A DNA stretch of 64,000 bases from assembly GCF_900233005.1 (NCBI RefSeq), contig NZ_LT960612.1:1364001-1428000 (forward strand). Reading direction: 5' to 3'. Each line of letters opens with the position of its first letter. Positions within the stretch are counted from its first letter, which is position 1. The position numbers and the translations under genes are program-made. This document shows positions 33,101 through 64,000 of this stretch, in pieces. The notes under the pieces are model-generated. The model searched no databases. It was not told the origin of the DNA and saw only the letters and a program-made list of their open reading frames with translations. Source of the DNA: Vibrio tapetis subsp. tapetis (GTDB lineage Bacteria > Pseudomonadota > Gammaproteobacteria > Enterobacterales > Vibrionaceae).

Positions 33101-36100
33101 TCAGAACGGCAGTTGGTGCGGTATCGCTACCAATTAACGTGACGCTTAGCTGTTTCTCTGTTCCGTCTACTGATTTTACTGTAACAACGTCTGTTGCATT
33201 ATGACCTTGAGTGAGGGCTAAGGCGCTTCTATTGGGTGTGAATTCCCAGTGGCCGTTTTCCGCTATCGTAAATTCTCCGTGAGTACTTGGAAGAACCTGC
33301 GCCACAAAATGTGCGTCCCTACTGTCGGTATCGGTAATCGTTAGCTGCCCTATTACGGAGGTTACTTCGTCTGTCTGGACTTGGTTGATGCCTGTGATGA
33401 TGGCATTGGGTACTGGGCGTGTCGGGTCTAAGATTAAGCTTTGGAAATGACTGTCTGTTGCTGTAGTGCCGTCAGGTCCTTGCGTTGTAACAGTTAAACC
33501 AATATGCATGTTTTGTTTGTTACCGCCAGGCAGTTGAGCCGTCAGTGTTGTCATGGACCAGTCTTTGATATCCAACATTTCTGTTGGGCCAGTAACAGTA
33601 TGAGTATGGCCGTGTTTGTCTTCGAGTATCGTACCTTTAATTAAACCTGTTAGGGTAATGCGTGTGACAATATCATCGCTGTCTTGTGGTGGGGTAACAT
33701 TGGGGTTTAGATGGATCAGTGCATCGGTATTTGGAATTGCCACGCTGGCATCCACTAGAGTAGCGTGTGCTTGAACATCGGCCGTTGCTGTAATTTGGTG
33801 ATGCCCCGTGGTGTCTACGAACTGGCCTGCAGCGTTTGCCCTGACGTCGATAACCAAACCGGTATCTTTATCTACGACGGTAGAGAGTGGGGCTGACTTG
33901 AGTTGGGCTGCAGTAACAGGCACGTTTGCCAAAGACACACTGAAAATTTGACCATGAAACGCATCTGCGCGACTGAATCCATGATCAACATGCGAGCCGG
34001 TTTCTAGGTTGTAATGATCTTGGTCATTACCGACAGCGAGTATCCCATTACCTGTTAAATGGTAACCCTGAGCGACTGGCCCTGAGTGGCTCCATTTTGA
34101 GTTGCCGTCAACCAGGAGTTCCAAGTGCCCGGTACTAGACGACCAAAGAACAGAATAACGATGAGTTTGACCATCTGTGGCGCTGATGCCTGTTTTATAT
34201 TCGTGGCCGTCAATTCGGATTGTTAGGTCAGTGGGGTTCCAAACGTAGAATAAGTCTTGGCTAGTACCTGCAACGCCATAACTGACGAAAGTAGGGCCAT
34301 TAATCCCGGCAGGAGGAGCAGTAGGGCCACCAATGATATTGAACTCCACAGCAAGGTTATCAATATTACCACCTGTTTGAAGCTGTCCGTTATTGGTCAT
34401 TCCGCCACTGCTATTGGCCGAGAATTGCAGGACTTGTTGCTCGGTTGTAAAGCTTAATTGCGCATTCGCTTTGTCTGTAATCGGATCTACTGCTATAGCC
34501 ATTATGTTATTGATCGTTGATTGCCCATCGGTCAAGTTATAGTGGATGTCGGCAGTACCTTTGAAGTTGGATCCAGGGGTAAACGTCCATGTGCCGTCAT
34601 GGTTGTCAATAATATTACCTTGGCTTGGATCGACACTAAGTGAGTTGACGTGTAATGCATCTCCGTCAAGGTCACTTGCACCTGATAGTAATTGACTTTC
34701 TGTAATGATTAATCCGCCTGTAATATCCTCAGTCGTATGTGCGGAGGTTGGGCCAGTCACAACTGGTACATCGTTGACATTATCGACGGTTAACTGCGCT
34801 GACGCTTGTTGGGAGTCACTGATACCATCATTTACGGTGTACCCAAATTGCACTGTGTTTGTTCCGGTTGTATGGAAGTTAGCTGTTGGTCGGAATATCA
34901 GGTTCGCGATATCACCACGACTGATATCTTGATTGGCAGATATTACTTGCCCGTTAAGAAGCATTCTTCCCTCTAGTACATCGGGGAGAGAGGAAATGGT
35001 GATGTGGTCAAGCTTGTCTGAACTGTCTTTATCCGTAAAGCCAAAATCGGCAACGCTAAATTGGTAATCAGCATCTTCGGTTGCCGTAATGACTTGGGCT
35101 GTGATGCTCGGTTGATCGTTACTTCCGTACACTACTGCAGTAAGTAATTGAGTTGTACCATCGGCGCTATGTACGGTAATCGTGTCGATGATTTTTTCAC
35201 TGGCAGCGAGTTGATCGATAGTAGGACTATTAGTATTCGCTCTGAAATACCATTCGCCAGAGGCATGGAGAATAAATTCCCCTATATGTTTATCCCCGTC
35301 AACCCATACACCGTATGAGGTCGCATTACTATTACTGGTATTTTTCCCTGTCGGGATAAAGTAATTTTGGCCTGAGTCTAGATCATGAATTGACAAGTTC
35401 ATCTGATCAGAAGACACCATATGGCTGCGACTAACATGAATATCCTCGGTTATATGAGTTCTCCCATCAGTATTGGTTTGGCCGCTGATTTGAGCTGCAT
35501 CATTAGTGCCTGTGACCGTAATGGTTGCGCTTTGAGCAAGATGTCCACCGTGGCTATCCTCAACGTTGTAGGTAACTGTGATGGTTTCAGACTCTCCGTC
35601 GGAAAGATGTTGGAATTGAGTGGCGTTGCTATTGACGATTAATGTATGTCCATCGCGAGCTAAAGTGAGAAATGACGGTATTGCCGTGGAAACCGAGCCT
35701 GAGCCAATTTGATAGGCAAGGTTGCCAATAGAGAGAACATCGCCAGAGTCGGGATCGGTTGCACCATCCAGTAAGTTAATTGCACCCATTCCAGAGTCTT
35801 CAGCTTTTGTCCCTGAGACACTTGAGGCCACAGCGGGTGGAGCGTTCACAAATAGAGATACAGCTTGAGTGGTTGATTGGCTTTCACCTCCTGCGGAGGC
35901 GGTTGCGGTTACGCTAAAGTGCAAATCGCCATGGAAACTCGGATCTTTAAGATCTAATTCGAGTCCATTCAAATCTGATTTATGCAACACCCATAGTTTA
36001 GCTCGGGCATCGTGTGTTCCATGATTGAGAACAGCATTATCTGGCAGGCCGCTGATTTTTATCAGCATATCTTCTGTATCACCCCCAGTGTCAGCACTGT

Positions 36101-39100
36101 CAACATTGAGCGTCAGTGCCATTAGCGTGCCTTGCTGTGCATCGGGAGCTGTGGCTGTCAGTACTGGGCTGTCGACAGAGCCTTGAATGGTGATAGTTAT
36201 GTTTCGAGTGACTTGTGTACCATCTGTTGAGGTAGAAGTGACGGGGATCACTTCGGTTAATGTTTGGTGGATACCAAGAGCGTTTACTACAGGGTTGGTG
36301 TTATCCAAGGTGTAGTGATAATGCCCATTGCCATCGAGTGAGAAGTGTCCGTATTGGGTTCCGTGATCAGTTTGAGTGACAAAGTGAGCGGTATCCCCGC
36401 TGTCTATATCTGAAGTCCTTAGCTCACCATTGACCGTCGTTTGTCCGCTGTCTTCTTTCAATTCAGCATACATTCCCGCGGGAGTGACGTTATCTACGGT
36501 AGTGCCCTGAACGTTGACCACCATTTCGGAAGATTTCTGTCCAGCGCCATTTTCTATATGTAAGGTATGAGAACCGTCAGGTAAATGATCGCCTGCGACT
36601 TCCCAGTGGCCATTGTTATCGACAATAATTGAAGCGAGTTGGGTATGGCCATCCATGATATGGATCGTTTCACCGGGAGTACCTGAACCACTATACGCGG
36701 CATGGCCAATCCGTAAGTTCTCATAAGTGTGATAGTAAAGATAATCGACTTCACTACCGCCACCAGTACATACTCGGTTGACGATGCCGATGGTTTGATG
36801 ACCTGCGCTGTCTTCGAAAACAACGACACCACCAGACCATGCGTTACCGTGGCCGCTAGCGCCACCTGAACCGGTGTTTATTGTATCTGGAATGCCATTT
36901 TGAGCCCACCAGTCATGGCTGTTTACTCGGTTATAGCCTCCGGGGCCACTATGTGCGGTAGATGTCGTGGCAGGGTGCGTGACCCAGTTATGATCTGATC
37001 CAGGTTTATATAGACCAACTAACTTAATACCAGAGCTGGCTCCGGTTTTATCTGTTCCCCACCGTTGTGCATTTTCTGCATCAGTAGGCGCGATGTCGAT
37101 ATTGGCTCCAGTTGGGTCGGAGATGACGTTCACATCTTGAAGCTTTAGAGCTGGAGAGGTATTTGCAGGCGCAGCATGAGCCGATTCAATGATTGGCTTA
37201 TCGTTTGATCCTTTGATTGTTATACCAATGGTTTGAGTGTGGCCATCACTTGCGGTGAATGTGTAATGATCGAGAACTGATGGGTTGTCTGGGTCTAAAT
37301 GCTGAACCTTGCTTTCATCTAGAGTATAAGTCCACTTTCCATTGACCATTTGAATATCGCCGTAGGTGGTCGCTGTCGATGAAAGGTAGGGGAAACTTGG
37401 GTTGTCACCGGCATCAGGATCGGTAATAAAAAGCTGGCCACTTGTCGTAACGTTATCACTGAGGTTTCCTTCTACTATTGAGTCAGAGTTATCTCCGGTA
37501 ACAACAGAGGCATCGCCCACGGGAGCAATGTGTAGAGTGTTGGTCGCTTGTGCTGAATCAAGACGCCCATCGCTAACGGAATACTTGAACGATACGTCGC
37601 CATTAAAGTCTTGAGCGGGCACAAATTGCAGCTTGATAATATCTGCGGTTGTGATGCGCTGGCCTGACACTACATCATGCCCGTCGAAAACAAATTTACC
37701 TTGATTTGCTGGTGGTAAATCAGTTAATACAATAGAGTGCAATTGGTCACCGCTATCGACGTCAGTAAATCCAAATTGGCTAGCCTGCATTTGATACTGA
37801 GTATCTTCTATCCCATCGGTTAATGCGACTTTGATGGCGGCAGGAGCGTCATTAGTTCCTATTACGTCAATATGCAATTCGTAAGCAGTGCCGTCATAAC
37901 TGTGTACTCGGTAAACAACCGTTTCGACTTGCCCTTGAGCTAGCCGTTGAAGGTTGGCATTATCGACGCTATATCCCCAGCTTCCTGAATTGTCTATTCG
38001 CAGCATCCCGGCAAATGGATCATGCACGGCAGATTCGCCAAATTGACTGTATTGAAATTTATTTTGCCCACTATCCGGGTCAATAACGTTAAGTTGCCCG
38101 TTGGCAAGTTCTGTGGTTCTACCGTTGTTATGGCTGCTGTGTGATCCATCTTCGGTGACATTTTCTGTGGATGCGACCGAGACAATTGCAAGGTCGTTGC
38201 TCCCTTGAACGTTAATTTGTACGCGCTGTGTTGTTTGAGAACCGTCGGTAGACACTGCAGTAATATCAAACCCTTCAGCGTGGATCTGACCAGCACGAAG
38301 AGAGTCAGCTTTGTGTGGATCTAAGTTGTAATGCCAATGCCCATTTGTGTCGACATGCAATGTGCCATAGTGACCGATGGTGTCACCAGCTTTGAAAGAA
38401 ACGGTATCTTGATTATCCAGATCGTGGGCATTAAATGTCCCTGATACGGAAGTGGTTACATCTTCTATGGCTTTGCCCAACGGTGAGGAAAGGGCATTAG
38501 GCGTGTCAATGACAACATGGTCATCTGTGCCATTGATTGTTGCAGTTAGAGGAATGCGAGTCCCGTCAACAGTGATTAATGTGATGCTGTCGGTAAGGGA
38601 GTCTCCGTGACTTAAACCTTGTACTTCCGAATGGGTATTGTTGGCCGTATAGCTCCATTTATCGTGTCCATCTGTACCGTGAGTGAAGTTAAATGTGCCA
38701 TGAGCACCGGCTAGGTTCATTGCAAAGTTTACTGGCACTGCGTGTTGTACGCCATTGACCTCAATGTGAGTAACCTTGGCCTCTGTCGTTGCGTCTACGT
38801 CTTTAATATCGAGATTATTCCATCCTGACCATAAATCTGTATTGCTGCCCAATTTGAGTTGATCTTCGGTGACCGTATTGGATGAAAGTGAAGCCTCAAG
38901 CGTTGCTGAATCGTTACTAGCCGAGAGAGTAGTAGTGGCATCTGCGTGGGTCACCCCTCCATGCCGGTCAAGCACATCATAGCTAAACTTAACCTGGCCA
39001 TTGTAATCAGGATTTGGCCGGAAGGTGAATGATCCATCACGGTTGTGGGTTACAGTTCCGTTATCTGCGAGCACAGAATCTACATGAAGTAGGCCTTGAT

Positions 39101-41738: not shown

Positions 41739-41920
41739 CAACCAGTTTTATATCTTGCTAATAGTTAAGTACAGGAATCATAAAGACGCTAGCTAATTAG
41801 ATAATTAATAAGGATAAAAGTAGAATAAATACAGCGTCAGCAATACTTCTTTCAAAACTCCAAATTCGTTTTTCCTATTCAACAATAAGTGACTGGATGA
41901 AGCGATACATAATTGTCTAT

Positions 41921-51300: not shown

Positions 51301-52098
51301 TTATAAAGTAGCGCCTCCATCAACGCGAAGATCCTGCATGGTAATGTGCCCAGCCTTTTCGCTGAGTAAGAATAGGACGGCGTTAACAATGTCATCGGGC
51401 TCCGCAATTTTTCCTAATGGAATACCAAGCTTGTGCTGTTCTAAGTTACCTTGGATAGTGAGTTGTTCTCCATCTGCATTTTGCCACAATTGCTCTTGCA
51501 TACTCGTTCGGGTTGAGCCAGGGCTAACAATATTACAGCGTATTCCATATTGCGCTAACTCTAAACCCATGCATTTGATTGCAATATGAAGACTGGCTTT
51601 GGAGGCACAATATGCGGACATATTTACTCGTGGAGTATCTGCGGCGTTAGACCCAACAACGACCAATGATCCAGGGTAATGGTTCGTTACCCATGTTTTC
51701 GCTAAATGCTGCAGCAGGACAAACGTCCCAATGAAATTAGTATTGAGCGTATCAGTGAGTTGTTCTGCGGAGAGCTCAAGGATCGGGGAAAGGTGCAAAA
51801 TACCGGCGGCGCTGATGATATTGTTTGGTGTGAGACCTTTTTCGGAGATCGATTGACAAAAATTGGACACTGAAGTTAGGTCATTAAGATCGACTGAATA
51901 GAGGTGTGCCTTGTCTTGTTGTTTGGCGGTTAAGCTCTCATAAAAGGCCAAGAGTTGTTCATTGTCCTTATCCAAAAGAATGACTTCTTCATCTTGTGTT
52001 AGAACTGCTTTTGCACAGGCTTTGCCAATGCCACTTGCCGCACCGGTAATTAAAGTTAATGTCCTTGGTTTTTCAGCGTCCATCATTAAGTCATCCAT
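51301..52098 (-). CDS. entA: 2,3-dihydro-2,3-dihydroxybenzoate dehydrogenase (EntA type)
   Basis: The short-chain dehydrogenase protein has the nucleotide loop LITGAASGIGKACAKAVL, NNIISAAGI, the active-site block VVVGSNAADTPRVNMSAYCASKASLHIAIKC with Ser, Tyr and Lys, and VSPGSTRTSMQEQLW, which is typical of EntA/DhbA. It oxidises 2,3-dihydro-DHB to 2,3-dihydroxybenzoate with NAD. The start is uncertain: the longest frame begins inside the Fur box, so ATG 52098, 52086 or 52083 is more credible. It is divergent from the siderophore operon and shares its Fur-regulated promoter region. Confidence 0.9.
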   Translation of the reverse strand: MDDLMMDAEKPRTLTLITGAASGIGKACAKAVLTQDEEVILLDKDNEQLLAFYESLTAKQQDKAHLYSVDLNDLTSVSNFCQSISEKGLTPNNIISAAGILHLSPILELSAEQLTDTLNTNFIGTFVLLQHLAKTWVTNHYPGSLVVVGSNAADTPRVNMSAYCASKASLHIAIKCMGLELAQYGIRCNIVSPGSTRTSMQEQLWQNADGEQLTIQGNLEQHKLGIPLGKIAEPDDIVNAVLFLLSEKAGHITMQDLRVDGGATL

Positions 52099-52126
52099 TA
52101 TTGTGTGATAGGCTGAACTATACATT

Positions 52127-52150
52127 ATGATAATGATTTTTGTTATCATT
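52127..52150. promoter_or_regulatory. Fur box in divergent promoter of entA-type and TIKI-lipoprotein genes
   Basis: The sequence gataatgatttttgttatca, extended by one or two bases each side, contains the Fur half-sites gataatgat and atcatt facing each other. It lies between two divergent genes of the siderophore locus, so Fe-Fur should repress both. Confidence 0.82.
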
Positions 52151-52179: not shown

Positions 52180-53277
52180 TTGGCTTTATTTAGCAACAAG
52201 CAAACTATCAAATACACGTTATTACTTTTGAGTGCGACCCTTTTTGGATGTGAATATCTACCTCATTCAGCAAAGCTGGATTTGAGTAAAAAGGATATTC
52301 AAGAATTAGCGAACGAGGCTCCATTGGCGACAGCGGCTATTACTAAGGCTTTTGAGCAGTACGATGTGGTTGCCATTGGAGATTATCATTGGAACGAAGG
52401 CACGCTTCGTTATGCAATAGAATTAATCAAATCTGGCTCGTTACCTTTAACGGTTAAGAATATTGTTGTCGAGTTTGGTAATGCAAAATATCAACATACA
52501 CTCGATGATTATATTAATGGGGAAGACGTCTCCCAAAATTCTCTTCAGGAGGTTATGAGAGGTTCATTGTATTTCATGGCTTGGATGCCAGAAATCTACC
52601 GCGAATTTTTTACCGTAGTTCGGACACACAACATGGCATCGGCAAGACATAATAGGATTAAAGTCCACTTAGCCGAAGCCCCTTTTGATTGGGAAAAATT
52701 GACGGAAGTGAGTGAATGGGAGACGGCAGCGAAAACAAAAACAGCCCACTTTTATAAAGTCAGTTCGGAATTGTTAGACAAGGAACAAAAAGCGCTGCTC
52801 ATTTTCGGAGCGTTTCACTTGATAAACGCAACCTCCGAATATACATCGGCCACGATAGAAAAAAATTGGCCATTGGCAACAAGGCTTAAAAAACACTATC
52901 CAAACAAAATTTTTACTATTTGGCCGCTGACTGACCCGGTTGTTGTCAACGCGCTAGATCCACTCGATGAGAACTCTCTGGTTTTCACAAAAAAAACACC
53001 GTTCAAGGAACTTAGAATGATCGATATCTTGCCAAAATCTAGATATAAGCTGGCTGAAATGGGGGACATGAATGCAGAAGTTGGTTTGCTATTTGATGCT
53101 TTTTTGTACGTAGGGAAAACAGAAAGGATTACGTTGTTTCCCCGCTCGGTCATGAACGATGAAGTTTGGGTCGGTGAAATGCAACGCAGAGTCGATTTGA
53201 TTGGCGGGCGAGTTAAAGACAAATTTGATGATATTCGTAAACAGAGCGCCAAAGCTTATGAGTTAAATCATCTATAA
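52180..53277 (+). CDS. TIKI/EreA-ChaN-like lipoprotein of the siderophore locus
   Basis: The 365-residue protein starts at TTG 52180 with gagg 9 bases upstream; the nearby ATG at 52173 is in another frame and ends at once. The signal has a lipobox, LLLLSATLFGC, so it is a lipoprotein. The domain resembles the EreA/ChaN (TIKI) fold: VVAIGDYHWNEG, IVVEFGNAKYQHTLDDYI, HLAEAPFDWEKL, LIFGAFHLINAT, then TIWPL and DAFLYVG. ChaN proteins bind haem; EreA enzymes are esterases. Either, or a siderophore-handling role, is possible. It has a cytosolic paralogue at 61331. It sits just after a Fur box. Confidence 0.7.
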   Translation: MALFSNKQTIKYTLLLLSATLFGCEYLPHSAKLDLSKKDIQELANEAPLATAAITKAFEQYDVVAIGDYHWNEGTLRYAIELIKSGSLPLTVKNIVVEFGNAKYQHTLDDYINGEDVSQNSLQEVMRGSLYFMAWMPEIYREFFTVVRTHNMASARHNRIKVHLAEAPFDWEKLTEVSEWETAAKTKTAHFYKVSSELLDKEQKALLIFGAFHLINATSEYTSATIEKNWPLATRLKKHYPNKIFTIWPLTDPVVVNALDPLDENSLVFTKKTPFKELRMIDILPKSRYKLAEMGDMNAEVGLLFDAFLYVGKTERITLFPRSVMNDEVWVGEMQRRVDLIGGRVKDKFDDIRKQSAKAYELNHL

Positions 53278-53292
53278 TCAAAAAAATGACAA

Positions 53293-53315
53293 AGAGGGCG
53301 ATGTTTTTGCCCTCT
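53293..53315 (+). terminator. Hairpin after TIKI lipoprotein
   Basis: The arms agagggc and gccctct form a 7-bp stem with a loop of gatgttttt. No T run follows, so it may be a weak terminator or an RNA-end stabiliser. Confidence 0.45.
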
Positions 53316-53462
53316 ATGCGTGCCACTTTTACCTTCCTAACTATATAAATAGTCTCACTTTAATCCCTTCTCGCTAAAACCGAATCCTGAAGATTTAGAT
53401 AAATCACAATAATAGTCCTTCCCATATAAAAATAATCTGATATGCTCACTGCTACCTGTCAG

Positions 53463-53481
53463 TTGATAATGATTATCATTA
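53463..53481. promoter_or_regulatory. Fur box ahead of the entC-type gene
   Basis: The sequence tgataatgattatcatta is a near-perfect Fur palindrome (gataatgattatcat). It lies about 36 bases before the start of the isochorismate synthase gene. Confidence 0.85.
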
Positions 53482-53516
53482 CGGTTTATTATTTAATTAC
53501 ATAATAAGGATTGGTT

Positions 53517-54728
53517 ATGTTTCGAGATTCAGTAGGCAATAAGTTGCTACTAACCAAATTATTTGACGATGACTTAGATGGGGCACTCTTCTTTTTTAGC
53601 TCCCCTACAGTGACAATGTTGACCGAAGGCGTCGCCGCTGAATTGACTGAGACGCTGAAATTTTCAGAACTCGATGACCAAATAAATAATTTATTCTTAA
53701 AAGTAAAAAGTGACGATAATGACAACCCGATCGCGGTTGGTGTCATTCCGTTTTCTGAAGGTAATCCAGTCCATTTTATTGTCCCTAAGAGGATAGTGAC
53801 AACCTCTCCAATACGACCCAATTCCATTGAAGAATCGGAATGTTTAGGGGTCTGTAGACCTTCAACAGTTTGGTCAAACCCTACCGCTCAGGTTTACATG
53901 AAAAGCGTGTTGGAAGCCGAATCATGCTGCGGAAATTGTGATTCTTCCTTAGATAAAGTCGTTCTGTCACGAACCGTAGAGGTGGATACAGAAACTGAAA
54001 TCGACCGAATATCATTGTTGAAACGATTATTAAAACAAAACCCTGGGGGTTATACGTTTTCAACCAAATTAGGTTCCGGAGGGGAAGATTCATACTTGAT
54101 GGGATCGAGCCCAGAGCTGCTGGTTTCAAGAAAAGGCCAATACGTTTGCTCAAATCCCTTGGCAGGATCTCGTCGACGTAGTACTGACGAAGAGATTAAC
54201 CTGCAAAACTCAGAGTCGATGATCGACAGTGAAAAAGATCTTCATGAACACGCGGTGGTCGTCGATGCAGTCGAAAGAGCGTTGCAGCCATGGTGTTCGA
54301 ACCTATACGTGCCTTTGATTCCGTCGGTCATGGCGACCAAGTCGATGCTTCATTTGTCCACCAAAATAGAAGGCACTATTTTGGACGTTAGTACCAGTGC
54401 GTTAAAGCTAGCGAGTCATTTACACCCAACACCTGCTGTCTGTGGTTACCCAACGGATAACGCGCATCAATTTATCAATAATACAGAACCCTTTGATAGG
54501 GGCTATTTCACGGGGCTTGTGGGTTGGGTGGACTCTAGAGGCAATGGTGAATGGGTGGTGGTCATCCGGTGCGCACAAGTTGAAAAGAAGCGGTTAAAAG
54601 TCTATGCGGGCGCGGGCATTGTAAGTGGCTCGGAGCCCTTAAGTGAATTAAACGAAACCGGAAATAAAATGAGAACGGTGTTGAATGCGCTTGGTATTGA
54701 TTTAAAAGAAGAAATGGAAACGACATAA
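53517..54728 (+). CDS. entC: Isochorismate synthase (EntC/DhbC type)
   Basis: The protein of 403 residues matches the chorismate-binding isochorismate synthases. It has DKVVLSRTVEV, LMGSSPELLVSRKGQYVCSNPLAGSRRR, DLHEHAVVVDAVERAL, SHLHPTPAVCGYP, EPFDRGYFTGLVGW and KVYAGAGIVSGSEPLSELNETGNK. It turns chorismate into isochorismate in the cytosol, the first step to DHB. ATG 53517 is taken because aagga lies 6 bases upstream; the TTG six bases earlier does not. The entE-type gene starts 2 bases after its stop, so they are one operon. Confidence 0.94.
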   Translation: MFRDSVGNKLLLTKLFDDDLDGALFFFSSPTVTMLTEGVAAELTETLKFSELDDQINNLFLKVKSDDNDNPIAVGVIPFSEGNPVHFIVPKRIVTTSPIRPNSIEESECLGVCRPSTVWSNPTAQVYMKSVLEAESCCGNCDSSLDKVVLSRTVEVDTETEIDRISLLKRLLKQNPGGYTFSTKLGSGGEDSYLMGSSPELLVSRKGQYVCSNPLAGSRRRSTDEEINLQNSESMIDSEKDLHEHAVVVDAVERALQPWCSNLYVPLIPSVMATKSMLHLSTKIEGTILDVSTSALKLASHLHPTPAVCGYPTDNAHQFINNTEPFDRGYFTGLVGWVDSRGNGEWVVVIRCAQVEKKRLKVYAGAGIVSGSEPLSELNETGNKMRTVLNALGIDLKEEMETT

Positions 54729-54730
54729 GT

Positions 54731-56368
54731 ATGATGACTAGTAAATCAAACTCTGGTTTTACCCCGTGGCCGGAAGAATACAAAACGCGTTACCGAGCCG
54801 CTGGATATTGGACCGACTTAACCATACCGAAAATGTTAGAAATATCATCAAGAAATTATCCGGATCAAAAAGCGCTGATCTGCGGGGAACGAGAGTTTAC
54901 CTACCAGGAGGTAAATGAAAAAGTAATTTCATTATCGACCGGTTTCTATTCAAAATTGAAATTACGAAGCGGTGATAAAGTTGTCCTTCATTTACCCAAT
55001 ACCGCTGAGTTCTATTTTTGTCTATTTGCATTATTACGAATTGGCGTACAACCATTATTAGCCTTACCTGCGCATCGATATGCCGAATTATCGTATTTTT
55101 GTGATTTTATTCAAGCGAAGGCATTAATAACAGGTTCTCAGTTAAATGTTGATATTGAATCATTGTCTGAAAAAATTGTAGAAAATAGCACGGTCAAACC
55201 CCAGATCGTGTGGTGTGGTTCTGGCAAGCCAAAATACGGCGTAAAGGTAGGTGAATTATATTCAGCAAACGCTGACGTTAACTCTAATTCAAATGAAGAA
55301 TTTGCTCTATTTCAATTGTCCGGAGGCACGACGGGAACCCCCAAACTTATTCCTCGTACCCATTATGACTATTTGTATAGTGTTGAAAAAAGCAATCAGG
55401 TTTGTGATTTTTCCTCAAGGACTCGTTACTTATGTGTACTTCCTGCCGCCCATAACTTTTCGTTGAGTTCACCTGGAGCATTAGGATGCTTTATGGCCGG
55501 AGGCACCGTGATACTTGGCCAAGACTCTAGCCCTCAAACTGTCTTTTCTTTAATTGAAAAACATAAAGTTACCGTGACTGCTGCGGTTCCACCTTTGGCG
55601 CGGCTTTGGTTAGCCTATGCTAAGGAGCGTATTTATGACATTAGCTCTCTTGGTGTATTGCAAGTTGGCGGTGCGAGATTTGACGAAGAGACGGCAAGGC
55701 AAGTACGCCCAATTATGGGGTGCCAACTGCAACAAGTATTTGGTATGGCTGAAGGGCTTGTCAACTATACGCGTTTGGATGACCCCGAGGACGTGATCGT
55801 AACGACACAAGGCAGACCAATGTGTGATGACGACGAAATCCGAGTCGAGGATAAGTCGGGCAACTTGGTGCCAACGGGAACACCCGGCCTTTTACGAGTG
55901 AGGGGAGCTTATACGATCAGGGGCTATTTTAATGCACCTGAACATAATCGGAGTTCTTTTGATTCTGAGGGTTTCTATCACACAGGAGACATCGTTTCAG
56001 TAACAAAAGAAGGCAACTTGCAAGTTGTCGGCCGTGTTAAAGATCAAATCAACAGAGGAGGGGAAAAAATCGCCGCTCCAGAGGTTGAAAACCATTTACT
56101 CGCTCACAGCGATATCCATGATGCTGCGGTCGTCGGCGTTCCGGATGCTTATTTGGGAGAGCAGAGCTGTGCGGTCATTGTATGTATCGAAAAACAATTG
56201 AAACCGATCGAAATTAAACGCTTCCTGAGATCGAAAGGTTTGGCCGATTACAAGGTGCCAGATAGGATCATTTTCGTGGATGTTTTGCCTAAAACAGCCG
56301 TTGGAAAGGTGGATAAAAACAAATTAATTGGCGATTTCAATTCGCACGAAAATCGCATCCCCTATTAG
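54731..56368 (+). CDS. entE: 2,3-dihydroxybenzoate-AMP ligase (EntE/DhbE type)
   Basis: The 545-residue stand-alone adenylation enzyme has FQLSGGTTGTPKLIPRTHYDYLYSVEKS as the ATP loop, QVFGMAEGLVNYTRLDDPED with the DHB-pocket NYT, the YHTGDIV and VVGRVKDQINRGGEKIAAPEVEN core, and the catalytic Lys in PKTAVGKVDK. It activates DHB as the adenylate and loads it onto the aryl carrier protein encoded next. The match to EntE is close over the full length. It is the second gene of the operon. Confidence 0.94.
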   Translation: MMTSKSNSGFTPWPEEYKTRYRAAGYWTDLTIPKMLEISSRNYPDQKALICGEREFTYQEVNEKVISLSTGFYSKLKLRSGDKVVLHLPNTAEFYFCLFALLRIGVQPLLALPAHRYAELSYFCDFIQAKALITGSQLNVDIESLSEKIVENSTVKPQIVWCGSGKPKYGVKVGELYSANADVNSNSNEEFALFQLSGGTTGTPKLIPRTHYDYLYSVEKSNQVCDFSSRTRYLCVLPAAHNFSLSSPGALGCFMAGGTVILGQDSSPQTVFSLIEKHKVTVTAAVPPLARLWLAYAKERIYDISSLGVLQVGGARFDEETARQVRPIMGCQLQQVFGMAEGLVNYTRLDDPEDVIVTTQGRPMCDDDEIRVEDKSGNLVPTGTPGLLRVRGAYTIRGYFNAPEHNRSSFDSEGFYHTGDIVSVTKEGNLQVVGRVKDQINRGGEKIAAPEVENHLLAHSDIHDAAVVGVPDAYLGEQSCAVIVCIEKQLKPIEIKRFLRSKGLADYKVPDRIIFVDVLPKTAVGKVDKNKLIGDFNSHENRIPY

Positions 56369-56417
56369 TTAACTCATTATTAAAATCAATCGTTTACTAT
56401 ACATAAAAGAGGTTTTT

Positions 56418-57332
56418 ATGGCTATCCCGTCTATTGCTGCTTATCCATTAAATTCATTAGAAGCTCAAAATCGAGTCGATTGGAATATAGACCCTGATCG
56501 TGCGGTATTGTTGGTTCATGACATGCAGCAGTATTTTCTTAACTTTTATGCGCAAGACAGTGAGCTAGTGAAATCATTACTCAGTAATATACAAGAGGTG
56601 AAACGCGCATGTAAGGCGGCAAATATCCCAGTCGTTTATACCGCTCAACCGGGCGGCCAGTCAGCTAAAGATCGCGCGTTATTGACCGATTTTTGGGGCC
56701 CTGGTCTTATTGATGATGAAAGTATCACCAAGATTCATCCTAGCTTAACCCCTGAAGATGAAGACATTGTCTATACCAAATGGCGATATAGTGCTTTTCA
56801 GCGTACACCGCTTGAAAACATGATGAAAGAAAGTGGCCGAGACCAACTCATTATCGTTGGAATTTATGCTCATATCGGCTGCCTACAAACCACTTGTGAA
56901 GCATTTATGATGGATATACAGGCATTTATGATTTCAGATGCCACGGCAGATTTTTCTCAAACCGATCATCAAATGGCCCTAGATTATGTTGCAGGGCGGT
57001 GTGGTTATGTGCTGGATAAAGAACAGCTTATTGCGCAACTACCCAATCAAAACTCAAACGAGAAAGGCAGCGAATATCCATCCGCTCCTTCAGTTTATTC
57101 CATCCCTAAAAGTGAAGCTGACCTTAAGGCTCAAATAGCGAACTTGCTGTCGATTTCGGTTGATGAACTAACCATGGACGACAGTTTGTTAGATTTTGGG
57201 TTGGATTCCATAAGGATGATGTCCTTAGTGAGTTCATGGCAGCAAAGTGGCCTTTCAGTCACCTTTATGGATCTCGCGACGAGCCCGAAGGTCAACGAAT
57301 GGTGGGAGCTAATTCAGCACAAAACTGAGTAA
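56418..57332 (+). CDS. entB: Isochorismatase with aryl carrier domain (EntB/VibB type)
   Basis: The protein of 304 residues has an N-terminal isochorismatase domain (RAVLLVHDMQQYFLNFY, YTKWRYSAF, IVGIYAHIGCLQTTCEAFM with Cys155). A C-terminal aryl carrier domain follows, in which LDFGLDSIRMMSLVSSW carries the phosphopantetheine Ser264. It hydrolyses isochorismate to dihydro-DHB, and as ArCP it holds DHB for peptide bond formation. A phosphopantetheinyl transferase is needed but not in the window. Confidence 0.94.
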   Translation: MAIPSIAAYPLNSLEAQNRVDWNIDPDRAVLLVHDMQQYFLNFYAQDSELVKSLLSNIQEVKRACKAANIPVVYTAQPGGQSAKDRALLTDFWGPGLIDDESITKIHPSLTPEDEDIVYTKWRYSAFQRTPLENMMKESGRDQLIIVGIYAHIGCLQTTCEAFMMDIQAFMISDATADFSQTDHQMALDYVAGRCGYVLDKEQLIAQLPNQNSNEKGSEYPSAPSVYSIPKSEADLKAQIANLLSISVDELTMDDSLLDFGLDSIRMMSLVSSWQQSGLSVTFMDLATSPKVNEWWELIQHKTE

Positions 57333-57372
57333 TCGAATGTTGAATTAGTGAGAGACGATCAAAGGAATGAAT

Positions 57373-60300
57373 ATGAACGATACGGACCAATTGAAGAAAA
57401 CACCCAATTCATCGCAAGACCTTTTACCGCTGACCGATGCGCAAGCAGGTATTTGGTATGCACAGCAACGAGATCCGGATAATCCCATTTATAAAACTGG
57501 AGAATATATCGTTATTGATGGAATGGTTGACGAATCTTGTTTTGTTGAAGCTGTGACCATTGCGGTTAATGAAGTGGATTCTTTGCATGCAAGATTCATG
57601 ACCACCATTGAAGGTCCAAGAATGCTCATCACCCGAAGAGATTGGGAAGTCGATCGTTTGGATTTTTCGAAACAAAATCAGCCTCTTGAGTGTGCAATTG
57701 ACTGGATGAAAATGGAACTAAGTGTTGCGGTTGATCTAGCGAAAGATAGATTATTTTCCATGGCATTTATTACATTGTCGCCGAAGCGGTGTATTTGGTT
57801 TTTATCGCTTCATCATATTGCTATTGATGGTTATAGCATGTCATTAATCGCATCCAGAGTCGCCCATATTTATACCAACCTTACGACGGGTACTCCAGTA
57901 GACAGCATTCATTTTGCAAGCCAGCAGACGATCCTCGACGAAGACAATGCATATAAGTTATCGGATCGGTATGTAAAAGACCGCAACTTCTATTTAGAAC
58001 GCTATAAAGATCATAGCGATACTGTAAATTTAGCGGGTAAACCGACGGTGACGTCAGACCGATTTTTACGTTTGAAAGGGGTTATGGAACGGTCGCATTT
58101 TACCCATATGGAGCACCTAGCAAAACAATGCCGGACGCATTGGTATAGCGTACTTATGGCGTCAATTGCGTCTTATGTACACCGAATGACGGGCTCAAAG
58201 GAAGTGGTGCTTGGCATGCCGTTAATGGGGCGATTAGGTTCTGTTGCTATTCAAACCCCCTCGATGCGTGTGAATATTTTGCCTGTTCGGGTGAGTTTTG
58301 AACAAGGGACCAGTGTTGTTGAGCTAGTCAAACAGGTTAATCATGAATTTTCTCGTGTGAGACGCCATCAAGGTTTTCGTTATGAAGAGTTACATCGAGA
58401 ATTAAATTTAGTCAAAGATAATCGCAATTTGTTCGGTCCCCTTGTTAATATCATGCCGTTTGATTACCAACATAAGTTCGGTGATCTAAGTTCGAACGCG
58501 TTCAATTTGTCGGCAGGTCCGGTGGATGACATTTCATTCTATTGCTATGAATTAGATGAGCAGTTACACATCGATATGGATGCAAACCCGGCGCTGTATT
58601 CGATTGACGACCTGAACAATCACCAACAAAGGTTGTTTCATTTTATGGGGGGCTTTTTCGATTCCTATCAAAATTCCGATTCGCTAATTAGCCAACTCGA
58701 AATTTTGTTGCCTGGTGAAAAAAACCGAATAATAAATGACTGGAATGATACCCATCAAGCCATTCCTAAGACGACATTAACAGAGCTACTTGCTCTGCAG
58801 CGAGTTCGTACGCCGACGGCACCTGCGATTATTTTTGACGAAACCGTATTGACGTATGAACAAGTAGCACAAAAAGTTGAAGGATTAGCTAATTGGTTGC
58901 GTATACAAGGGGTAGTCAAAGGGAAACGTGTGGCGGTTTGTGTTCCTCGTAGTATTGAGCTCATTGTCGTACAGCAGGCTGTCTTGGCAGTCGGTGCGGT
59001 TTACGTGCCGATAGACCCAGATTACCCTGATGAACGAATTCGTTACTTATTGGAGTCGTCTCAGCCCGATTGGGTATTCACTCATTCAGCCCAACAAGAT
59101 AAATTGTCGACGTTTCCTCATGTTCAACTTGTCGATAATGGGGCGTTGGAAGCGCTCTATGATACCCGTATCGATCTCAACGAAGATGAGATAGCGGCCG
59201 TTGAACTCGATCCCGATGATCCTGCCTATATCATTTACACATCAGGTTCGACAGGTAAACCTAAAGGTGTTGTTATTAGCCATGGCGCCATCGTTAATCG
59301 CTTACTTTGGATGCAAGATTCTTATCCGATTGATGAAAACGACAGAGTTTTACAAAAAACACCCGCCGGTTTTGATGTATCAGTTTGGGAGTTTTTCTGG
59401 CCTATGATCCAAGGAGCTTGCCTTGTTGTGGCTATGCCTGAAGGACATAAAGACCCTCTGTATTTGCAAGACCTTATCCATAGTCAAGAGATCACCACCT
59501 TGCATTTTGTCCCTTCGATGCTTCAAGTGTTTGTGCATCAAGTGAATCCAGAAAAATGCAGAAGTATCAAACAGGTATTTTGTAGTGGAGAGGCGCTATC
59601 TTCGGAATTAGTTCATCGTTATCTACAGAGTTTTTCAGGATGTCTACATAACCTTTATGGGCCAACGGAAGCTGCGATTGACGTGACTTACTGGCCGTGT
59701 ACCAAAACCAATTGCGAGCATAGTGTTCCTATCGGGTTTCCTGTGTGGAATACCAAGATGTACATTTTGGATGATGAGTTGCAACCCGTTCCGCCAGGGG
59801 TTGTTGGTCACCTTTATATTGCGGGATCTCAATTGGCTACAGGTTATTTTGGGCAGAAAACGCTGACCGACGAGCGCTTTATCCAAAATCCTTTTGAGGC
59901 GAGAGATAGTAAAATGTACCGATCTGGGGATCTGGCATTTTGGCGTAAGGACGGAGCAATCGAATACAGCGGCCGCAGTGATTTTCAAGTAAAAATACGC
60001 GGTTTCAGGATTGAATTGGAAGAAATAGAACGGGCACTAATACAACACCCAAGTGTTGGGCAAGTTGCCGTTCTGGCTCCTGAGTTTATGGATGGGGATA
60101 AACGGCTAGTGGCATACGTTGTATGCGTTGGACAAGAAAGCTTTGAATTGGCTCATATGCAGAGCCACTTAGCGAAGACGCTCCCCGAGTATATGTTACC
60201 GAACTATCTTGTTGTGCTAGATGCATTCCCACTGACAGATAACGGCAAGTTTGATCGAAGTGCATTGCCAAAGCCTGATCTCGCTGAACAAATAGGGACG

Positions 60301-61338
60301 AAAGGACCAAGCACGTTAGTTGAAGAAAGGCTCTGTAAGCTATTTTGTAAGTTATTGGATTTACCGGAGGTCGGCGTTGACGATAATTTCTTCGAGTTGG
60401 GAGGGCATTCACTATTGGCCGCTCAACTGATTGCTTACATTCGGGAAATTATGGGCGTTGATCTCTCCTTGGCCGCTGTGTTTGAAGCGCCAACGGTGGC
60501 GAGTATTGCAGCAAAGCTTGATGGCAGTACAAGTGACGAGGCGTTAGATGTGCTGTTGCCCCTGCGAACAAGAGAAGGGCAACCTGCCATATTTTGTGTC
60601 CACCCAGCTGGTGGGTTGAGTTGGTGCTATGCAGCCTTGACCCCAATCATTCCCTCTCATATTCCGCTATATGGAGTTCAATCGAAAAATCTTGGGAACC
60701 CAGATAACCCATTACCCAAAACAATGGTAGAGATGGCTGAAGACTATGTCGCCGCGATCCGAAAAGAACAACCATTCGGGCCTTATCATTTATTGGGCTG
60801 GTCTATTGGAGGAATGATAGCGCATGTAATGGCCGCTATTTTACAACAGCAAGGGCAAAAGGTTGGTTTACTTACCTTATTAGATTCATACCCCTCGGAA
60901 CAATGGCAAACAATGAACCCCCCAGGGGAAGAGCAGGCATTGGGCGCACTTATCCGTATGGCAGGTGTTGAATTTGATGAAACGATTCATACCAGTTTAA
61001 CGAAGCAAGAGGTCATCGATATTTTACAAGATGCAGGTTCGTCAATGGCTCACCTTAGCGCTGAGACGATTGCCTCTATGATAGAAGTTGTCATCAATAA
61101 TAATCACCGCGTACGAGACAAACTTGATTACGTCTATAAAGGCGATATGTTGTTTTTCAATGCAGAAAAATCTGATGACGAAGGCTTTCTAGAGAAAGCT
61201 GGATGGAACAGTTATATGGATGGAGATATCAAGGTCGTGGATGTTAACTGTATCCATCGAGATATGATGCGCCCAGACATGTTACGACTTATTGGTACAA
61301 AAATGGTCGAAGAACTGCAAGACCAAAATTATGGGTAG
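57373..61338 (+). CDS. entF: Single-module NRPS C-A-T-TE, serine-type (EntF/AebF-like)
   Basis: The protein of 1321 residues has four domains. The condensation domain (about 15-440) has LSLHHIAIDG with the HHxxxDG motif. The adenylation domain (about 470-960) has YTSGSTGKPKG at about 621. The carrier has FFELGGHSLLAAQL (Ser1013), and the thioesterase has LLGWSIGGM (Ser1144) with a later Asp and His. The A-domain pocket (FDVSVWEFF, TTLHFVPSM, QVFCSGEAL, YGPTEAAIDV) reads D-V-W-H-F-S-x-I-D, close to the serine code of EntF. It should join DHB to Ser and cyclise the trimer, giving enterobactin or a related acylated form. ATG 57373 has aagga at 6 bases; an in-frame ATG lies 6 bases earlier. Confidence 0.93.
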   Translation: MNDTDQLKKTPNSSQDLLPLTDAQAGIWYAQQRDPDNPIYKTGEYIVIDGMVDESCFVEAVTIAVNEVDSLHARFMTTIEGPRMLITRRDWEVDRLDFSKQNQPLECAIDWMKMELSVAVDLAKDRLFSMAFITLSPKRCIWFLSLHHIAIDGYSMSLIASRVAHIYTNLTTGTPVDSIHFASQQTILDEDNAYKLSDRYVKDRNFYLERYKDHSDTVNLAGKPTVTSDRFLRLKGVMERSHFTHMEHLAKQCRTHWYSVLMASIASYVHRMTGSKEVVLGMPLMGRLGSVAIQTPSMRVNILPVRVSFEQGTSVVELVKQVNHEFSRVRRHQGFRYEELHRELNLVKDNRNLFGPLVNIMPFDYQHKFGDLSSNAFNLSAGPVDDISFYCYELDEQLHIDMDANPALYSIDDLNNHQQRLFHFMGGFFDSYQNSDSLISQLEILLPGEKNRIINDWNDTHQAIPKTTLTELLALQRVRTPTAPAIIFDETVLTYEQVAQKVEGLANWLRIQGVVKGKRVAVCVPRSIELIVVQQAVLAVGAVYVPIDPDYPDERIRYLLESSQPDWVFTHSAQQDKLSTFPHVQLVDNGALEALYDTRIDLNEDEIAAVELDPDDPAYIIYTSGSTGKPKGVVISHGAIVNRLLWMQDSYPIDENDRVLQKTPAGFDVSVWEFFWPMIQGACLVVAMPEGHKDPLYLQDLIHSQEITTLHFVPSMLQVFVHQVNPEKCRSIKQVFCSGEALSSELVHRYLQSFSGCLHNLYGPTEAAIDVTYWPCTKTNCEHSVPIGFPVWNTKMYILDDELQPVPPGVVGHLYIAGSQLATGYFGQKTLTDERFIQNPFEARDSKMYRSGDLAFWRKDGAIEYSGRSDFQVKIRGFRIELEEIERALIQHPSVGQVAVLAPEFMDGDKRLVAYVVCVGQESFELAHMQSHLAKTLPEYMLPNYLVVLDAFPLTDNGKFDRSALPKPDLAEQIGTKGPSTLVEERLCKLFCKLLDLPEVGVDDNFFELGGHSLLAAQLIAYIREIMGVDLSLAAVFEAPTVASIAAKLDGSTSDEALDVLLPLRTREGQPAIFCVHPAGGLSWCYAALTPIIPSHIPLYGVQSKNLGNPDNPLPKTMVEMAEDYVAAIRKEQPFGPYHLLGWSIGGMIAHVMAAILQQQGQKVGLLTLLDSYPSEQWQTMNPPGEEQALGALIRMAGVEFDETIHTSLTKQEVIDILQDAGSSMAHLSAETIASMIEVVINNNHRVRDKLDYVYKGDMLFFNAEKSDDEGFLEKAGWNSYMDGDIKVVDVNCIHRDMMRPDMLRLIGTKMVEELQDQNYG

Positions 61339-62311
61339 TGTTATTGGCACAATACAAAATGGAGTAATCCAAGACGGCGTTTTATCCCCAGTCTCATATT
61401 TTGGCAATGTACTTAGCCGCGGTTCAATACTGGGAGTTGGAGAGGCGCACTGGTATGCGGGCTTGTTTGAGGAGATAACCAAAATTATGTTGTCTCCGCA
61501 ATTAGACGGATTGTTTCAGAAGTTGTTTGTAGAGTTCGGTAATTCGGCATATCAGGAGTTACTGGATTCGTATATTAATGGCGGGAACGTTGCGTTCGAC
61601 GATCTTTCCTGTATTTGGTTGGATTCGGTCTCTTTTCCTGCATGGTTACATCCTTGCTACGGTATGTTTTTTAAGCAGGTTAGAGATGCCAATAAGTGTC
61701 GCTCTTATCCCGTCCAAATTATTTTGTCAGAACCCCCAATTGAGTGGAGTAAAGTAAAGACAGATAAACATCTGAAGCAATTAAATGGGCTTAGAGATCA
61801 GGCGCTATTCCATAAAGTGAACGAAGAAACCAAAGGGGGAAAAGAGCCGGCCATTGTTTTTTTTGGGGCGAAACACATACTGAATAAGACGCCACAATTC
61901 GGTCGTTTCAAGTGTTTTGGTGAGCAAGCAAAACACGCGTTCGGGGAAACATATCATAGTGTTTGGCCGCATATGCTGTCGGGTGACGGCTATGAAAAAG
62001 ATCATCAAATGTTTGATAAGCCTACGTCTGGCGGAGTCATAAAGACGACGGATGTTAATATTCGCGAACTATGCCTATGTGATGTTTTACCAAACCGATC
62101 TGCTGCGGGATCGTCCTTGTCCATGAAACTTCCACAAGTGATGGACGCTTACCTGTATTTAGGCCCACAAAGTCGACAATTTGAAGTGAACACATTATCT
62201 AGTGACTGGAATGAAATTTTGAGACAACGATTAGGTTTTCTCAACCCTCGACAAAAGGAGGTCGTCAGTAGGGTATTGAACAAAAGTTCTGCTGTTGTCA
62301 TTAGAGAGTGA
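61331..62311 (+). CDS. Cytosolic TIKI/EreA-ChaN-like paralogue of the siderophore operon
   Basis: The protein has 326 residues from ATG 61331, which overlaps the NRPS stop by 8 bases (atgggtag), so it is translationally coupled. It shares block after block with the lipoprotein at 52180: ILGVGEAHWYAG, LFVEFGNSAYQELLDSYI, ILSEPPIEWSKV, IVFFGAKHILNKT, SVWPH, DAYLYLG. It has no signal peptide or lipobox, so it should stay in the cytosol. The fold is that of EreA-type esterases or ChaN. Being the last gene of the biosynthetic operon, it may hydrolyse or handle the siderophore or its intermediates; this is inference. Confidence 0.7.
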   Translation: MGSVIGTIQNGVIQDGVLSPVSYFGNVLSRGSILGVGEAHWYAGLFEEITKIMLSPQLDGLFQKLFVEFGNSAYQELLDSYINGGNVAFDDLSCIWLDSVSFPAWLHPCYGMFFKQVRDANKCRSYPVQIILSEPPIEWSKVKTDKHLKQLNGLRDQALFHKVNEETKGGKEPAIVFFGAKHILNKTPQFGRFKCFGEQAKHAFGETYHSVWPHMLSGDGYEKDHQMFDKPTSGGVIKTTDVNIRELCLCDVLPNRSAAGSSLSMKLPQVMDAYLYLGPQSRQFEVNTLSSDWNEILRQRLGFLNPRQKEVVSRVLNKSSAVVIRE

Positions 62312-62406: not shown

Positions 62407-62430
62407 ATGATAATGATTGTTATTATCATT
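62407..62430. promoter_or_regulatory. Fur box ahead of the TonB-dependent receptor
   Basis: The sequence gataatgattgttattatca has opposing half-sites gataatgat and attatcat. It lies about 60 bases before the receptor start. Confidence 0.85.
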
Positions 62431-62487: not shown

Positions 62488-64000
62488 GTGAAAGATGTAA
62501 CGTTAAAAGATCGCTTTCCACTTTCGTTGGTAGGCATTGCTATGCTGTCTGCGTTTAGCCACCCCGTATTGGCGAGTGACGTTGGTTATGACGAAAATGA
62601 AACCATGGTGGTTACCGCAAGTCTTACTAAACATTCAGAGTTAACTGCTCCCGCATCGATCTCGGTAATTACCGCTGAAGATATTGAGAAAATGCCAGTT
62701 AAGGATTTATCTGAAATCGTAAGGGGAGCTGCTGGTGTCAATGCTCTTAGCTCGACGGCTTATGGCCGAAGCTCAGTTCGGATCCGTGGTTTAGATTCAA
62801 AACACACGTTAATTTTAATTAATGGACGTCGTATCAACTCTCAAGATGCACTTATCCGAGGCAATGACTTTGATCTTGCTACTGTGCCGATCTCAGCGAT
62901 TGAGCGAGTGGAAGTGGTTCGCGGGCCCGTTTCATCACTCTATGGCTCCGAGGCAATGGGTGGGGTGATCAACGTTATTTTGAAGCCAACGACCGACGAG
63001 TTTTCTGGTTCGGTTGGCCTAGAATATGAAAGTGTTCTGGAAGGAGACGGCGGTGATGGAACGAAGGGGCATGCATACGTTAGCGGACAAATGGCAGATT
63101 CCGTGTCTGGAAGCCTCATTGTAGAGTCATCAAAACGAGATCCTTGGAGAACAGAAAAAAATCCAACCGTTGACGCAATTGAACAGCGTCAAAGCACAAA
63201 TTTAATGAGTGAGGTTAACTGGCAATTGAGCGACTCTCAAACTCTGGTTGCTGATGTTATCTACACCAAAGATGAACGAGAGGCCGATTGGGTTCATCCA
63301 CGTAGTGGTATGCACACCAATTCGCAGAACTCGACGAGATGGAATTACGGTTTAGCCCATCAAGGCGTTTGGGATTCCTTTGATTCAAATGCGCGTATTT
63401 ATGGTGAAACGATGAAGCTAGACGATTCGAGTACAGCGTACTCGAATGGATCCGCTCAGGTCGAATTACAACAAAATGCGCTTGATTTCAATTTGAGTGG
63501 GTTGATAAATGATACCCATGCGTGGGTCGCAGGTGGTGAGTATAGAACGTCTAAGCTAAAGAATGATCGAGATCTGAAGTCAGGAGACGTGACTAATTAT
63601 CAAGGCGCGGTATTCCTACAAGGTGAATTCGAATTAAATGATTTGGCGTTAACATTAGGTGGGCGTCAGGATTACCATGAGGTGTATGGTAGTCACTTTA
63701 GTCCTCGCGCATACGCAGTTTATAGTTTTACAGATCAGTTTGTGGCAAAAGCGGGAGCGGGGGGCGGTTTTAGAGCTCCGGGTATGATGGAAAGTAGCGA
63801 TCAGGTACGTGTTATCAGTTGCGGAAATCGTTGTTGGTTAACCGGCAACGATGACTTAAAACCGGAAGAGTCTGAAAGTTATGAAGTCGGGTTTGGTTAT
63901 GAGTCAGCAGATCTAGGGCTTGGCATTGTTTATTACCATAACAACCTTAAAAACAAAATTGAAAGGGATTTGACAAAACAGGTCGGTGTTGAAGGGAGCG
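62488..64000 (+). CDS. TonB-dependent catecholate siderophore receptor (IrgA/VctA-like), 3' end beyond window
   Basis: This frame runs for 504 codons off the right edge. It starts with GTG 62488 after aagg, has a signal peptide (SLVGIAMLSAFSHPVLAS), then the TonB box ENETMVVTASL. The plug domain has ITAEDIEKMPVKDLSEIVRGAAGVN, SSVRIRGLDSKHTLILINGRR and IERVEVVRGPVSSLYGSEAMGGVINVI. The beta-barrel begins near residue 165 and continues; GGGFRAPGMMESS and LKPEESESYEVGFGY are typical barrel motifs. The plug and early barrel resemble the IrgA/VctA/FepA group of catecholate receptors. It should import the ferric form of the siderophore made next door. A strong Fur box precedes it. Confidence 0.9.
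   Translation, partial: MKDVTLKDRFPLSLVGIAMLSAFSHPVLASDVGYDENETMVVTASLTKHSELTAPASISVITAEDIEKMPVKDLSEIVRGAAGVNALSSTAYGRSSVRIRGLDSKHTLILINGRRINSQDALIRGNDFDLATVPISAIERVEVVRGPVSSLYGSEAMGGVINVILKPTTDEFSGSVGLEYESVLEGDGGDGTKGHAYVSGQMADSVSGSLIVESSKRDPWRTEKNPTVDAIEQRQSTNLMSEVNWQLSDSQTLVADVIYTKDEREADWVHPRSGMHTNSQNSTRWNYGLAHQGVWDSFDSNARIYGETMKLDDSSTAYSNGSAQVELQQNALDFNLSGLINDTHAWVAGGEYRTSKLKNDRDLKSGDVTNYQGAVFLQGEFELNDLALTLGGRQDYHEVYGSHFSPRAYAVYSFTDQFVAKAGAGGGFRAPGMMESSDQVRVISCGNRCWLTGNDDLKPEESESYEVGFGYESADLGLGIVYYHNNLKNKIERDLTKQVGVEGS

Follow-up and report, generated by a model that had tools for sequence, protein, structure and literature searches.

The locus described here raises the question of which enzyme opens the serine lactone of an enterobactin-type siderophore when no esterase of the Fes or IroE type is encoded beside the biosynthetic genes. 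It lies in a window of 64,000 nucleotides, the whole stretch of DNA that was analysed (Vibrio tapetis subsp. tapetis, contig NZ_LT960612.1, positions 1,364,001 to 1,428,000; the source genome comprises 5.73 Mb in three contigs). Two genes bracket the siderophore operon of this window. The first, LIP (52180..53277, plus strand, 365 amino acids, TTG start), encodes a predicted lipoprotein with a predicted TIKI/EreA/ChaN fold, and the second, CYT (61331..62311, plus strand, 326 amino acids, ATG start), a predicted cytosolic paralogue of LIP. The reading favoured here, tentatively and with somewhat less than even weight, is that both are esterases of the TIKI/EreA/ChaN fold which open the cell's own (amphi-)enterobactin-type serine lactone and replace the alpha/beta-hydrolase esterases Fes, IroE and PfeE. 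Its basis is computational and consists of paralogy, predicted fold, conserved residues, gene order, co-occurrence and the absence of Fes. The occurrence of a paralogue pair on both sides of the siderophore operon is itself real and well above chance.

Judged by their sequences LIP and CYT are true paralogues. A BLASTP comparison yielded 25% identity over 306 amino acids with an E value of 2e-28, and comparison of the LIP family profile with the CYT family profile gave a probability of 99.95 and an E value of 7.9e-38 over 293 columns. The first-pass annotation, made from the DNA letters alone, had described such a pair with shared motif blocks, and both reading frames stand where it had placed them. 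The two motifs which it quoted were likewise found, EFGNAKYQHTLDDYI in LIP corresponding to EFGNSAYQELLDSYI in CYT and DYHWNEG to EAHWYAG. That annotation had also called the first protein a Fur-controlled lipoprotein and the second one translationally coupled to the non-ribosomal peptide synthetase (NRPS), and these assignments are borne out at the level of prediction. LIP starts with a signal-like stretch which ends at Cys24 of a lipobox-like ...LFGC motif, and this cysteine is found in 25 of the 27 aligned rows, the remaining 2 having gaps there. The longest open reading frame of CYT begins with a TTG at 61292 within the NRPS gene, and the conserved start is the ATG at 61331. No signal-like start was seen in CYT read from this ATG, as judged by alignment and an approximate hydropathy value, no signal-peptide predictor having been run, and CYT is thus predicted to be cytosolic. 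The ATG overlaps the stop of the NRPS gene by 8 nucleotides (ATGGGTAG), and because exactly this overlap occurs in all eight intact clusters examined, translational coupling of CYT to the NRPS is a sound inference.

A 19 bp Fur consensus was scanned over the 64 kb window. Its three best matches there were Fur-box-like sites between entA and LIP (52129..52147, 16/19), before entC (53465..53483, 17/19) and before the receptor gene (62409..62427, 17/19). As LIP, entC and the receptor gene are each preceded by such a site, LIP is probably a Fur-controlled unit of its own. A Fur-box-like site with 14-15 of 19 matching positions was also present upstream of LIP in each of the eight relatives fetched (L029-L036).

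A survey of co-occurrence, as suggested by the first-pass annotation, was carried out with the CYT profile in 227 genomes of the genus. Nine of them matched, all of which also contain LIP; CYT is intact in eight, about 9 kb from LIP and always beside it in an entC-E-B-F cluster. No genome of the genus was found to have either gene apart from this catechol cluster. According to the same annotation, its proposal would be contradicted if most genomes carried the pair elsewhere than at a siderophore locus; this arrangement was found in 0 of 8. In the window and the seven relatives with intact CYT the order is entA, then LIP, entC, entE, entB, entF, CYT and the receptor gene in 8 of 8 cases, and the CYT sequence diverges to about 40% across these clusters of conserved order. 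In the family, 11 of 329 genomes contain LIP, namely the nine of the genus and two (G414 and G471) that belong to other genera. The latter yielded a single match each, so that LIP occurs there without CYT. In both of them it is located directly upstream of a receptor gene whose product is 64-67% identical, and no match to entE, entB or entF was detected in the 20 kb fetched around it. In G471 this 20 kb gave weak matches to entA (24%) and entC (32%), which are taken to be different members of these large enzyme families. A LIP relative was further found in 3 of 369 genomes of the class, which are the window's own, G272 and G733. In these counts the contigs L021, L022, L024 and L023 were taken as genomes G067, G108, G079 and G414 and not counted twice. 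The presence of LIP beside a receptor alone in two genera points to an uptake-side protein, by analogy with PfeE in Pseudomonas aeruginosa. The bracketing pair of the first-pass annotation holds for all eight clusters of the genus, but since a receptor can be accompanied by LIP in the absence of CYT, the pair is rather to be described as an uptake-side LIP and a CYT which accompanies biosynthesis.

The fold was addressed with predicted structures. The predicted structures of LIP and CYT match erythromycin esterase and its relatives, and that of CYT matches ChaN as well; agreement with solved TIKI/EreA/ChaN members is well above background, which supports the assignment of both models to this fold, as the first-pass annotation had proposed. 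The CYT model is of moderate quality (pLDDT, the predicted local distance difference test score, 69.6; alignment of 14 sequences) with poor stretches at residues 184-191, 218-236, 253-260 and 270-286. For LIP no match of E<=0.001 was obtained with Foldseek alone, and the ChaN structure 2g5g was absent among the fold matches listed for LIP. Searches of the PDB by sequence with LIP, CYT or their profiles gave no relevant chain and one chance match, so that related structures were recognised by fold comparison only.

The residues expected for an active site of this fold are in place. In PMC7979712 the active-site residues of EreC are given as E47, H50, E78, H289 and R261, and in PMC6254334 E3900, H3902, E3930, H4030 and R4001 of RRSP are each described as essential; in both enzymes a glutamate stands 28 residues past the first histidine. 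CYT contains the corresponding first motif Glu38-x-His40 (61442..61450, plus strand, as all codons given here), Glu68 at 28 residues past His40 (61532..61534), Arg155 (61793..61795) and the second histidine His182 in GAKH (61874..61876). LIP contains Asp68-x-His70 (52381..52389), with aspartate where most of the wider relatives have glutamate, Glu98 at 28 residues past His70 (52471..52473), Lys187 aligned with the arginine of most wider relatives (52738..52740), and the second histidine His213 in GAFH (52816..52818). CYT thus has the set of two histidines, two acids and a basic residue with the spacing of 28, and LIP has it when aspartate and lysine are counted as equivalents. In this sense the residues of EreC and RRSP are kept in both proteins.

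All five positions proved to be invariant, being E, H, E, R and H in 14 of 14 CYT rows and D, H, E, K and H in 27 of 27 LIP rows. The CYT alignment (A1) consisted of the window's protein and 13 of 14 hits, the identical P0001 having been left out; the LIP alignment (A2) of the window's protein and 26 of 71 hits, without P0015 (97%), the fragment P0040 and every hit from P0043 onward. A rough chance for five preset residues all to be invariant is (72/326)^5 for CYT and (43/365)^5 for LIP, such residues not being randomly drawn. In a wider alignment (A3) of both window proteins with 55 of 85 hits, 57 sequences in total, the first acid is glutamate in 40 and aspartate in 17, the first histidine is present in 56, the second acid is glutamate in 57, the basic residue is arginine in 44 and lysine in 13, and the second histidine is present in 57. 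In a midpoint-rooted tree of these 57 proteins CYT forms one clade (100/100) and LIP lies inside a clade of 13 (100/99). Due to this rooting and a warning of long branches meeting, no conclusion was drawn on which of LIP and CYT came first.

Another line of evidence is the missing Fes-type esterase. The first-pass annotation had seen no alpha/beta hydrolase in the locus. As far as Fes and IroE are concerned this was right, since a domain scan of the cluster proteins detected neither of them, and a profile search of the whole genome gave an S-formylglutathione hydrolase as the sole PF00756 protein. The NRPS does carry a thioesterase domain, which itself has an alpha/beta-hydrolase fold. LIP and CYT match neither PF00756 nor PF05139 at E<=0.01. 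The N-terminal domain of Fes, PF11806, was detected in 52 of the 227 genomes of the genus, many of them with an open frame of 500-570 amino acids and only the G183 protein checked as Fes, and in none of the eight with intact CYT. G183 is the ninth LIP genome. It keeps an entF-type NRPS and a remnant of CYT, in which the 5' end and the 3' tail are retained and most of the middle is lost, and it encodes Fes, scoring 401.6 bits at a cut-off of 222, in an uptake cluster of its own that also comprises a receptor, a binding protein, permeases and a SIP reductase. In G011, which likewise has a catechol NRPS locus, Fes is encoded within that locus and is 38% identical to that of G183. As a side observation, a gene of the penicillin-amidase family adjoins Fes in the uptake cluster of G183 (L131:11267-13660) and perhaps encodes a siderophore amidase.

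Taken together, a course of events may be proposed in which the receptor encoded at 62488 would, as judged by its family, import the ferric siderophore to the periplasm. LIP, predicted from its lipobox to be anchored in the envelope, would cut one or more ester bonds there. Fold and residues suggest, in line with the mechanism proposed for EreC, that a water activated by histidine and glutamate would attack the carbonyl of the ester, and the cleavage would leave linear fragments with weaker binding of iron. CYT, presumably made together with the NRPS, would act in the cytosol on lactone that has been imported or freshly synthesised. The release of iron would then be completed by a SIP-type reductase, whose gene lies at another place in the genome. 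The context supports the role of LIP better than that of CYT, for which editing of NRPS products is a serious rival.

A number of findings weigh against this proposal. Within the proteins, LIP has aspartate for the first glutamate and lysine for the arginine, and His182 of CYT adjoins the low-confidence stretch 184-191 of the model. The ChaN of Campylobacter jejuni, described as a haem binder in PMC7979712, keeps E, H, E and H at the same places, so that the motif alone cannot separate an enzyme from a binder. Conservation of the motif was for this reason rejected as proof of catalysis; it indicates an intact site and not a reaction. The exclusion of Fes is statistically weak. One-sided Fisher tests of intact CYT against PF11806 gave p 0.035 in the 13 genomes that matched EntF strongly (0/8 versus 3/5) and p 0.12 over the 227 genomes, both uncorrected for kinship, and a plain exclusion of Fes by CYT was likewise rejected as proof. 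In G183 the receptor was not found at the threshold used and LIP is kept in addition to Fes, so that the loss of CYT there has other possible causes. In G137 and G021 a related NRPS (59-60%) occurs together with a related receptor (60%), but neither the LIP/CYT pair nor PF11806 is present. Three of the genomes with CYT (G067, G079 and G108) carry a second, weak PF00756 protein which is absent from the window's genome; it is lipoprotein-like, has about 270 amino acids and no NCBIfam match at 1e-8 (L108, L109, L110), and might be a further esterase of the envelope. The two genomes with LIP but no CYT, G414 and G471, encode 3 and 4 PF00756 proteins, which might act instead. All 13 genomes tested carry a gene for a SIP-type reductase, so that iron could be freed without opening of the ring. 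LIP-like genes also occur in three Oceanobacter loci and one Edaphobacter metagenome-assembled genome with no other cluster protein within 10 kb.

The absence of CYT from the two loci with receptor and LIP fits a role on the biosynthesis side better than a Fes-like one. LIP might accordingly be the uptake-side lactone esterase while CYT would be an editing or linearising hydrolase which has no part in iron release and removes stalled or incorrect products, whether these are still on the NRPS or have left it. EntH plays such an editing role in Escherichia coli. The overlap of CYT with the NRPS stop in all eight clusters and the absence of a stand-alone thioesterase among the eight cluster proteins scanned are in keeping with this division of tasks, but the NRPS has its own thioesterase domain, and G183, which retained the NRPS, lost CYT and has Fes elsewhere, is better explained by a function in iron release; on balance such a division appears somewhat unlikely. 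In another explanation LIP and CYT would be ChaN-like, non-catalytic carriers of haem or ferric catechols, and LIP would take over its cargo at the receptor and pass it to a binding protein in the periplasm. This is unlikely, as the hydrolase residues are invariant in both protein families and the CYT profile barely resembles that of the ChaN family (probability 3, E 0.014). In addition, none of the eight proteins scanned is a haem-transport protein above the cut-off, the receptor reaching 145 bits with the TonB-hemin model TIGR01785 at a cut-off of 317, and a cytosolic copy linked to an NRPS would have no obvious place in haem uptake.

The SIP reductase of all 13 genomes tested is also compatible with release of iron by reduction alone (SIP/ViuB type) and decay of the lactone without an enzyme, LIP and CYT then performing another step, for example as a peptidase at the receptor or in export. 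The authors of PMC9470620 leave room for hydrolysis without an enzyme, peptidases occur among the TIKI proteins according to PMC6254334, and G137 and G021 manage without the pair and without PF11806. The product of these two genomes may, however, not be the same serine macrolactone, since G137 (L074) encodes a stand-alone condensation-like protein of 449 amino acids beyond entA, identified with Pfam, and G021 (L075) has an open reading frame of equal length there. Retention of LIP beside the receptor in two genera further speaks against reductive release alone, which we regard as improbable. That the two genes merely travel with the cluster and serve an unrelated purpose would agree with the distant relatives located away from cluster genes (L025-L028) and is highly improbable in view of the order kept in all eight clusters while CYT diverges and of the Fur-box-like sites upstream of LIP in the eight relatives. 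As separate observations on such distant relatives, Oceanobacter kriegii (L027:8833-10912) and the Edaphobacter genome (L028:9845-11074 and 12780-13898) each contain two close LIP-like genes, with no match to other proteins of the siderophore cluster nearby.

For the esterase reading of LIP and CYT the best description of what would be new is a known activity, opening of a siderophore lactone, performed by a different fold. If true, this would be a second, unrelated fold for opening enterobactin-type lactones, divided between envelope and cytosol; it would link the fold of the macrolide esterases to the use of siderophores, and suggest a function for a group of iron-regulated genes annotated as 'hypothetical' or ChaN-like. 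A far-reaching version is quite unlikely to hold in full. It joins a system of siderophore-lactone esterases with the TIKI/EreA fold, distributed over two compartments and independent of the alpha/beta-hydrolase esterases, with the idea that iron-regulated ChaN-family lipoproteins beside TonB receptors in other bacteria may act as siderophore hydrolases and not as haem carriers, given that ChaN keeps the full set of two histidines and two glutamates.

The remaining genes of the locus were assigned from open reading frames and family profiles. To the left of LIP, on the minus strand, lies an entA-type 2,3-dihydro-2,3-dihydroxybenzoate dehydrogenase gene (51301..52149; TIGR04316 306.7 bits, cut-off 300), the true start of which is probably within the open reading frame. 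To the right, all on the plus strand, LIP is followed by an entC-type isochorismate synthase (53511..54728; TIGR00543 271.5 bits, cut-off 224.75), an entE-type (2,3-dihydroxybenzoyl)adenylate synthase (54731..56368; TIGR02275 728.3 bits, cut-off 723.55), an entB-type isochorismatase with a carrier domain (56418..57332, from domain matches) and an entF/aebF-type NRPS (57367..61338, from domain and family matches) of a single module with condensation, adenylation, thiolation and thioesterase domains (C-A-T-TE). The letters of its adenylation domain, read by eye as D-V-W-H-F-S-L-I-D, presumably equal the serine code of EntF except for one. Behind CYT follows a CirA-like TonB-dependent receptor (62488..64000), which continues beyond the window and has 652 amino acids in the genome; its best NCBIfam match, obtained with the part in the window, was CirA with 308.8 bits, below the cut-off of 745.

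Elsewhere in the window a protein of 3848 amino acids with repeated cadherin-like and bacterial Ig domains is encoded at 30195-41741 on the minus strand, and opposite to it, at 25148-30085 on the plus strand, genes for a type I secretion ABC protein and an HlyD-type protein are found; this is likely a giant secreted adhesin with an adjoining exporter. At 13617-17616 a type I phosphodiesterase/sulfatase-like gene adjoins genes of the FGE-sulfatase type and the radical SAM/SPASM type, possibly a sulfatase-like enzyme with its maturation partners.

With respect to known systems, the locus belongs with the amphi-enterobactin (aeb) loci of the Vibrio harveyi clade, and the cluster itself is already known, having been described in Vibrio campbellii BAA-1116. 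It has the entA, C, E, B and F set in common with the aeb cluster of Vibrio campbellii/harveyi, including the single-module NRPS, together with a catechol receptor. The contig of the V. harveyi type strain (L021) has the same gene order with LIP and CYT in place, and the window's cluster is divergent from its amphi-enterobactin relatives, the NRPS being 70-72% identical. In PMC9470620 further genes of the amphi-enterobactin cluster are drawn as hypothetical, and LIP and CYT, which occupy these positions in the V. harveyi locus, very likely belong to the genes so drawn. Tandem mass spectrometry in the same work showed that some fragments arise by hydrolysis of the finished macrolactone, and whether this is enzymatic was left open. 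Among the matches listed from the open-licence literature, judged by title and the start of the abstract, none reports a function for LIP or CYT.

Fes, IroE, Cee and PfeE resemble LIP and CYT in the proposed task of lactone opening. Fes is cytosolic, IroE and Cee are periplasmic enterobactin trilactone esterases, and IroE, Cee and PfeE are alpha/beta hydrolases. The Fes found here combines PF11806 with PF00756, whereas LIP and CYT match neither and are predicted to have another fold. PfeE, according to PMC8001512, releases iron from enterobactin in the periplasm of P. aeruginosa. ChaN of C. jejuni (PF04187, 2g5g) shares the fold with CYT, the GExH motif, the second histidine and, in the family profile, the glutamate 28 residues later, and it is a lipoprotein as LIP is predicted to be. 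It differs in its described haem binding and in that CYT has no PF04187 match, whereas LIP comes close with 27.1 bits at a cut-off of 27.7, or 29 bits with its frame neighbours in the genome search. EreC and BcR135 (PF05139) resemble both proteins in the fold, the spacing of 28 residues from histidine to glutamate, the two histidines and their acidic and basic partners. They differ in their first motif, which is GExxH as compared with GExH in CYT and GDxH in LIP, and the profile similarity to the erythromycin esterases is weak, with a probability of 82 for the wide family and 0.4 for CYT alone. The substrate opened by Ere is, like the one proposed here, a macrolactone.

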